Part shown: positions 1,692-44,919 of the stretch, piece by piece
How positions within the stretch are numbered: the stretch's first letter is position 1
Layout of the letters: the number at the start of each line of letters is the position of its first letter
Assembly (NCBI RefSeq): GCF_028714655.1
Contig: NZ_JAQTLY010000001.1
Coordinates: 62,001-126,000 of the forward strand
DNA from: Sulfurimonas sp.
Lineage (GTDB): Bacteria > Campylobacterota > Campylobacteria > Campylobacterales > Sulfurimonadaceae
Length of the DNA stretch: 64,000 nt
Reading direction: 5' to 3'
Translations under genes and position numbers: made by a program
The notes under the pieces: model-generated
The model's database searches: none
What the model was told of the DNA's origin: nothing
What the model saw: the letters and a program-made list of their open reading frames with translations, nothing else

Positions 1692-2039
1692 CTATTTTCC
1701 TATAACGGGCATCGAAGATACCTTTTGCGTATGAGACTCTGCAGTAGTTGAGTTATGCTCTTTATTATAAACTTCCATTTTATCTACATACTCTTGCAAA
1801 ACAAAATTTCTATTCTCATCCTCATTTTTCTTTTTGATAGTTTCATTTTTTTCAACTGCAGGAGTCCACTCCTCTTTTACCCAACTGTCAAGCTTGCTCT
1901 GCATATAGCCGCCCTTTTTATTTTCCTGTTCCCCGGAAACACTATTTAAAGCTTTGTTTTGCGATGGGTTCGCACCGTCTACCTTGCTGCAGGAAGTCAA
2001 AAGTACGGCTGCAAGTACAGCTAATACTAAATTATACAT
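1692..2039 (-). CDS. Small predicted lipoprotein of unknown function
   Basis: 115 residues. A short hydrophobic signal ends in a lipobox (LLTSC), so Cys17 would be lipidated and the protein anchored in a membrane facing the periplasm. The rest is hydrophilic and rich in Lys, Glu and Asn, with no recognisable domain. A Lys/Glu-rich central stretch (about residues 60-90) is probably helical. I do not recognise a family. It is transcribed away from the neighbouring porin gene at 2250, with about 210 bp between them. The lipobox is directly visible; function is unknown. Confidence 0.7.
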   Translation of the reverse strand: MYNLVLAVLAAVLLTSCSKVDGANPSQNKALNSVSGEQENKKGGYMQSKLDSWVKEEWTPAVEKNETIKKKNEDENRNFVLQEYVDKMEVYNKEHNSTTAESHTQKVSSMPVIGK

Positions 2040-2177
2040 ATAAAAATCCTTTATAAATCATTAGTGGTTTTTGTAACTATCCACATATTTTGTGGCAAAA
2101 GTATACATAAATAATTCCAAAATATTATAAAAATATTAATACTTTTCTATAAGTTAATCTTAAATTAAAGATAAATG

Positions 2178-2232
2178 TGACATTATGCTGACAATGTATT
2201 GACATTTTGTTGACAATATGTTGGCAATTTTT
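2178..2232 (+). promoter_or_regulatory. Five helically phased TGACA-type direct repeats upstream of porin
   Basis: TGAC (TGGC in the last unit) starts at 2178, 2189, 2200, 2211 and 2222, an exact 11-bp period repeated five times. The unit consensus is TGACAWTNTGT. The array ends 17 bp before the porin ATG at 2250. Eleven-bp direct repeats are typical sites for OmpR/PhoB-family winged-helix regulators, and TGACA is the reverse complement of the TGTCA half-site of the Pho box. The regulator itself is not in this window. Confidence 0.7.
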
Positions 2233-2249
2233 AAATTTGGAGAGTTAAA

Positions 2250-44807: not shown

Positions 44808-44919
44808 AGAGTTCTTGCAGAACTAAAAAATTAGATTCCAAATCAAGTTTGGAATGACGATATTTCTGAGTTTCCGTCATCCTAAACTTGATTCAGGATC
44901 TTTGGTTTGAAAGAACTCT
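44808..44919. mobile_element. 112-bp MITE-like composite palindromic element, copy 2
   Basis: Perfect 9-bp terminal inverted repeats AGAGTTCTT (44808-44816) and AAGAACTCT (44911-44919). Inside: AGTTCTTGCAGAACT, ATTCCAAATCAAGTTTGGAAT and ATCCTAAACTTGATTCAGGAT hairpins. Reverse orientation relative to copy 1 at 25303-25414. It starts 14 bp upstream of the murA ATG, between divergently transcribed genes, so it may also affect their promoters. Confidence 0.78.

Follow-up and report, generated by a model that had tools for sequence, protein, structure and literature searches.

An 11-bp direct-repeat array at a Sulfurimonas porin promoter, probably the operator of an OmpR/PhoB-family regulator

The porin promoter and its repeats

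The window analysed here, a 64-kb stretch of a Sulfurimonas genome of 2.19 Mb, carries a porin gene and a small lipoprotein-like gene that diverge from a common intergenic region (Table 1). The product of the first, called a porin in an earlier sequence-only reading of this DNA, resembles Opr-family porins, with both profile matches falling below the curated cut-offs; the divergent gene had no significant family match in the profile search. Upstream of the porin lies an array with an 11-bp period, in which exact TGACA units start at 2178, 2189, 2200 and 2211 and a further unit, at 2222, reads TGGCA; 17 bp separate the end of the array from the ATG at 2250. These are the unit starts, the period and the distance given in the sequence-only reading, whose count of five TGACA units is corrected to four, the fifth being TGGCA. 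On the minus strand the units read TGTCA, the orientation resembling that of a Pho box.

The array is real and far beyond chance. It is the sole run in the window of at least four identical 5-mers that are not low-complexity, at periods of 8-15 bp, compared with 0.025 such runs on average in dinucleotide shuffles (n = 40), and the analytic expectation for four exact units and one near unit is about 1e-7 per genome. A search of the 2.19 Mb genome for further copies, as had been suggested, found no second exact TGACA array of three units. Between fabI and a TorF-type gene, at 853-897, a 23-bp repeat (AAGCGCGGCAATCTmAATGACAC) occurs twice in the window and looks like part of a dispersed GCGCGGCAATCT repeat.

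Unit 1 overlaps a predicted extended -10 element, which we recognised by a TG-A-CAnnAT pattern conserved across the ortholog promoters; the ortholog script was anchored on TGACAnnAT, which by itself fixes the AT at positions 8-9 of unit 1, and an unanchored alignment agrees. Transcription of the porin is predicted to start near 2193, inside unit 2, which would place units 3-5 in the leader. A stricter hexamer scan did not list the -10 at 2181-2186, and canonical -35/-10 elements inside the array were discarded because the promoter scan matched there at chance level only. Further upstream lies a possible box of the HP1043/HsrA/CosR type, and TAAG-N5-nTTAA occurs in most of the 17 ortholog promoters with at least two units. 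The genome itself codes for an HP1043-type regulator, near-identical in its DNA-binding domain. The protein matches 2hqr (E=2.5e-87) and, in its DNA-binding domain, 2hqn (E=7e-56), both of which we take to be H. pylori HP1043 structures; 8uvx/8uuz are closer still.

Table 1. Features of the porin promoter region (window coordinates)
Feature	Position	Strand	Basis
Opr-type porin gene, 436 aa	2250..3560	+	NF033923 E=1.7e-10, Porin_4 E=1.4e-4, both below cut-off
Small lipoprotein-like gene, divergent from the porin	1692..2039	-	ORF; kept beside the porin in relatives
Five-unit 11-bp array: TGACATTATGC, TGACAATGTAT, TGACATTTTGT, TGACAATATGT, TGGCAATTTTT	2178..2232	+	Sequence, shuffles, orthologs
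Two-unit core (units 1 and 2), putatively ancestral	2178..2199	+	Kept in about 18/22 closer porin orthologs
Added units 3-5, some species only; units 3-4 repeat units 1-2	2200..2232	+	Alignment gap in two-unit species; unit lists
Predicted extended -10 TG-A-CATTAT (hexamer 2181-2186), overlapping unit 1	2178..2186	+	TGACAnnAT conservation in orthologs
Possible HP1043/HsrA/CosR-type box TATAAG-TTAAT-CTTAAA, about -45 to -29	2148..2164	+	Matches ttTAAG-5bp-tTTAAg (PMC8345958)
Shine-Dalgarno-like GGAGAG	2239..2244	+	Sequence; kept in ortholog alignment

Unit number among porin orthologs

We compared the promoter across 22 genomes, whose porin orthologs share roughly 59% identity or more except in G112 (51%). 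At least the first two units were kept in about 18 of the 22 closer orthologs: four exact units, often with a degenerate fifth, in eight, and two units in ten (nine by script, and G149 by eye, where the script had missed them at a contig edge). Unit 1 is intact and unit 2 decayed in G077 and G098, and the pair is missing from G006 and G032. At about 45-54% identity, the promoter is of another kind in most orthologs: it contains TATACT and lacks the array. Absence of the array before orthologous porins had been named in the sequence-only reading as grounds for refutation; the closer orthologs do not bear this out, G006 and G032 excepted, although the array is missing from most of the more distant set.

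The distance between units is conserved along with their sequence. The second unit reads TGACA at exactly 11 bp in 17 of the 20 porin promoters with a scorable first unit, and in the 17 scored promoters with two units or more both pentamers are fixed amid mostly variable spacers, a fixity that partly reflects the selection of this set by its pentamers. In the alignment, the extra units appear as an insertion downstream of the pair, and units 3-4 are similar to units 1-2, with G139 the clearest case (TGACATTATGT TGACAATATAT TGACATTATGT TGACAATATGT), as a 22-bp duplication of units 1-2 would give. We infer that in some species a two-unit site was lengthened by about 22-33 bp, taking the direction from the commoner two-unit state and not from a tree. 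Five consecutive units had been called more than usual; they do exceed the two that most orthologs have, although ArcA direct-repeat arrays also reach five (PMC3798270). With its two to five units at a single promoter, the series amounts to a natural experiment in which repeat number could be related to the output of a tandem operator.

Could the repeats serve no regulator at all? TGACATTAT might be a mere extended -10, with the repeats arising from local duplication: unit 1 fits TGn-CAnnAT across the ortholog set, the extra units resemble a 22-bp duplication, and the two genomes with a decayed unit 2 have kept unit 1. A -10 element has no need of unit 2, yet nearly all orthologs keep TGACA there, exactly 11 bp away. 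At ccoN, moreover, the pair precedes the -35 region, at tolC and tonB it is placed differently again, and its specificity for spacing and intergenic DNA extends across the genus (see below). We consider this explanation unlikely. It is extremely improbable that the repeats act in RNA, as a 5' stem-loop that stabilises the porin mRNA or controls its translation. The 101-nt leader region does fold with z=-2.3, pairing units 2 and 4, but this stem-loop was rejected as a weak fold that requires units 2-4 and cannot form in two-unit orthologs; the predicted start in unit 2 may also cut the stem, and elsewhere the same pair lies upstream of promoters.

In G021 and G005, a paralogous porin is preceded by an 11-bp array of a second kind. 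Its TGTAAAG-N4 repeats stop 2 bp short of a TTGACA -35 and lie no more than about 110 bp ahead of the porin-paralog start codons (L046:1692, L048:1612); the array probably belongs to a different OmpR-type regulator.

The TGTCA pair elsewhere in Sulfurimonas

In 15 Sulfurimonas genomes TGACA-N6-TGACA occurs 113 times, among 501 pairs with spacers of N3-N9; the other six spacers average about 65. We placed 85 N6 pairs outside porin promoters against open reading frames and found 49 to be intergenic (36 coding), as compared with 4 of 41 pairs at control spacings (37 coding), the latter drawn from two of the 15 genomes (p=1.2e-7, Fisher). Within those two genomes, the counts were 11 intergenic and 4 coding for N6 against 4 and 37 (p=9e-6); both p-values are approximate, with overlapping pairs counted as found and species not independent. 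TGTCA-N6-TGTCA is spacing-specific and enriched between genes outside the porin promoter, about 40% of these N6 pairs falling in coding DNA. The consensus of the pair is TGTCAWAAWWWTGTCA, with an AA-rich run ahead of the first half-site.

The neighbouring genes, which we named by reading protein sequences and not by family search, recur between species. Upstream of ccoN, the pair is exact in 11 of the 15 species and near-exact in two more. It is found at ccoG in six species (G000, G077, G032, G096, G120, G024), at YceI in five (G005, G021, G151, G139 with two copies, G024) and at nrdA in four (G077, G032, G096, G120), as well as beside a DUF1924 cytochrome (G021, G120), a cytochrome adjoining a nirS-like gene (G069, G024), NarK (G069), and a TonB receptor and a TolC-like gene (G005, G112). 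With a looser consensus, 21 genomes from other families gave a mixture of coding and intergenic matches; sites near ccoN occur there in G058 and G047 and are not general.

The position of the pair relative to the promoter varies between these genes. At ccoN, it occupies about -51 to -36 and is closely followed by a stretch containing TTTAAG and by TTTATACT; at ccoG and YceI it directly follows the -10 (TATAAT-TT-TGTCA and TATACT-C-TGTCA, respectively), as at the porin. The site reads against the direction of the gene at the porin and along it at ccoG and YceI. In G120 the ccoN operator and promoter stretch is shifted about 110 bp away from the ATG compared with relatives, and in G096 the 170 bp before ccoN do not contain it, in both cases as if DNA had been inserted. 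A dispersed palindrome-like element (CATTCCAAGCTTGACTTGGAATCTAG / CCTGAACTTGATTCAGGATC) occurs in several intergenic regions of the genome (L049, L052, L054, L115), including beside ccoN and ccoG; the window holds only one weak copy of it, at 44831.

A proposed operator and its relation to known systems

The sites have at least two direct half-sites at 10-11 bp centre to centre, are conserved before orthologous genes and lie between genes, as tandem operators do. The sequence-only reading had proposed an OmpR/PhoB-type site, and the 11-bp conservation, recurrence, spacing and intergenic bias support its tandem, head-to-tail arrangement; the regulator class itself we infer. On balance, the array is probably the operator of an OmpR/PhoB-family response regulator that is linked to respiration and represses the porin by covering its promoter. 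Regulator subunits would bind the TGTCA half-sites head to tail, on one face of the DNA. Since the sites at the porin reach from the extended -10 across the predicted start site into the leader, bound regulator would most likely block RNA polymerase and repress the gene, and extra units would make repression stronger or sharper. Points against this reading are the differing orientation of the site at the porin and at ccoG and YceI, the lack of the pair in most of the more distant porin orthologs and in two closer ones, and the share of N6 pairs that falls in coding DNA. The same regulator probably controls the cbb3 oxidase (ccoN), ccoG, nrdA, YceI and cytochrome genes, and because these are its presumed targets, its signal would most likely be oxygen or electron-acceptor status. 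A single regulator could act in both directions according to site position, as PhoB does (PMC10294691), because the pair lies upstream at ccoN and after the -10 at ccoG, YceI and the porin.

The same kind of operator might instead activate the porin, through an unrecognised promoter or by displacing a repressor. The ccoN pair, just upstream of or over the -35 region, is in an activator-like position, the porin start position rests on prediction, and ArcA may activate indirectly (PMC3798270). The porin array reaches to 17 bp before the ATG, however, leaving no room for a downstream promoter, and positions over the -10 and +1 usually repress, which makes activation very unlikely here.

Control by phosphate had also been suggested, from the likeness of the units to a Pho box. 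The likeness is correct: the half-site resembles CTGTCAT at an 11-nt period, and TGTCAWAAWWWTGTCA is close to the E. coli pstS box TGTCATAAAACTGTCATA (PMC10294691). A PhoB-type regulator adjusting the porin to phosphate limitation would further fit L102, the regulator with the best score for the PhoB model (186 bits, below the cut-off of 296), behind which lies a long open frame that could encode its kinase. Phosphate control itself is not supported. Reading protein N-termini in 15 genomes, we recognised no pst or pho gene beside exact pairs; the targets are mainly respiratory; and the DNA upstream of pstS in this genome (L114, TGTAATCATCTTGTAATATAGGACGCATATAAT) carries its Pho-type box as TGTAA-N6-TGTAA, 11 bp before TATAAT. 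E. coli PhoB accepts TGTAA too (PMC10294691). We regard a phosphate response of the porin as quite unlikely and a PhoB-like regulator as a possible binder.

Under the preferred reading, a repressor linked to respiration, the binder could be one of 12 OmpR-type (Trans_reg_C) proteins encoded in the genome. Naming it by autoregulation failed: in the DNA directly before each of the 12 genes, the stretch scanned whether or not the gene opens its operon, TGTCA-N6-TGTCA was not seen. TGTAA-N6-TGTAA lies upstream of the L104 regulator, and TGTCA pairs at 9-bp spacing were seen upstream of another OmpR-type regulator gene (L112, G000:C20:3749). A further candidate, L106 (G000:C1:54972), is encoded some 9 kb upstream of the porin and ahead of a long open frame that could specify a kinase. 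It is presumably RacR/ArsR-like and has a paralog at C1:143723; NCBIfam gave L106 no specific assignment. RacRS is active at low oxygen with alternative acceptors (PMC6682613, PMC4456614), a role that would suit respiratory targets, and we rank L106 first among the candidate binders, as a nominee and not a proven one. It is conceivable, if tentative, that cbb3 oxidase, cytochrome, ribonucleotide reductase and outer-membrane genes share an ArcA-like global respiratory regulator, other than ArcA, that coordinates them through Pho-box-type TGTCA arrays, and that 11-bp units added at single promoters tune output in evolution. The defined operator and its conserved target ccoN offer a direct bait for finding such a regulator in Sulfurimonas. 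We found no description of this regulon in Sulfurimonas in the open literature, many subscription papers being outside our scope; direct-repeat operators of the OmpR/PhoB family are already well known (ArcA, PhoB, OmpR).

Among systems of related bacteria, PceP of the free-living Sulfurospirillum is likewise an OmpR-family regulator with direct repeats near promoters (CTATA with 6-nt gaps), but its site, CTATW-N17-CTATW (PMC7755780), has another half-site and serves the PCE regulon. The HP1043/HsrA/CosR box, TTTAAG-N5-TTTAAG (PMC5253667, PMC8345958), shares the 11-bp spacing and has a likely instance directly upstream in the porin promoter; its half-site differs, and the TGACA array is a separate element. 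The Pho box of PhoB, a dual regulator whose action is set by site position (PMC10294691), comprises two 11-nt direct repeats with a CTGTCAT core (PMC4415409, PMC10294691). The Sulfurimonas unit, TGTCAwAAw, is near-identical to it and has the same period. Unlike Pho boxes, however, the Sulfurimonas sites serve respiratory targets, with no pst/pho gene recognised, and the porin array lies over the -10 and leader instead of upstream of the -10.

The ArcA box has a TGTTA-like half-site, from which the TGTCA of Sulfurimonas differs, and none of the five regulators scanned, of the 12, received an ArcA assignment. In E. coli, an ArcA site has a pair of direct repeats, 11 bp from centre to centre, and one to three additional ones; ArcA likely represses by promoter occlusion (PMC3798270). 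The Sulfurimonas sites resemble those of ArcA in being OmpR-family direct repeats of 11-bp period and variable number, with respiratory and outer-membrane targets and, as we propose here, repression by promoter overlap; as with ArcA, promoter-overlapping repeats are found at respiratory genes (ccoN, ccoG, cytochromes, NarK, nrdA).
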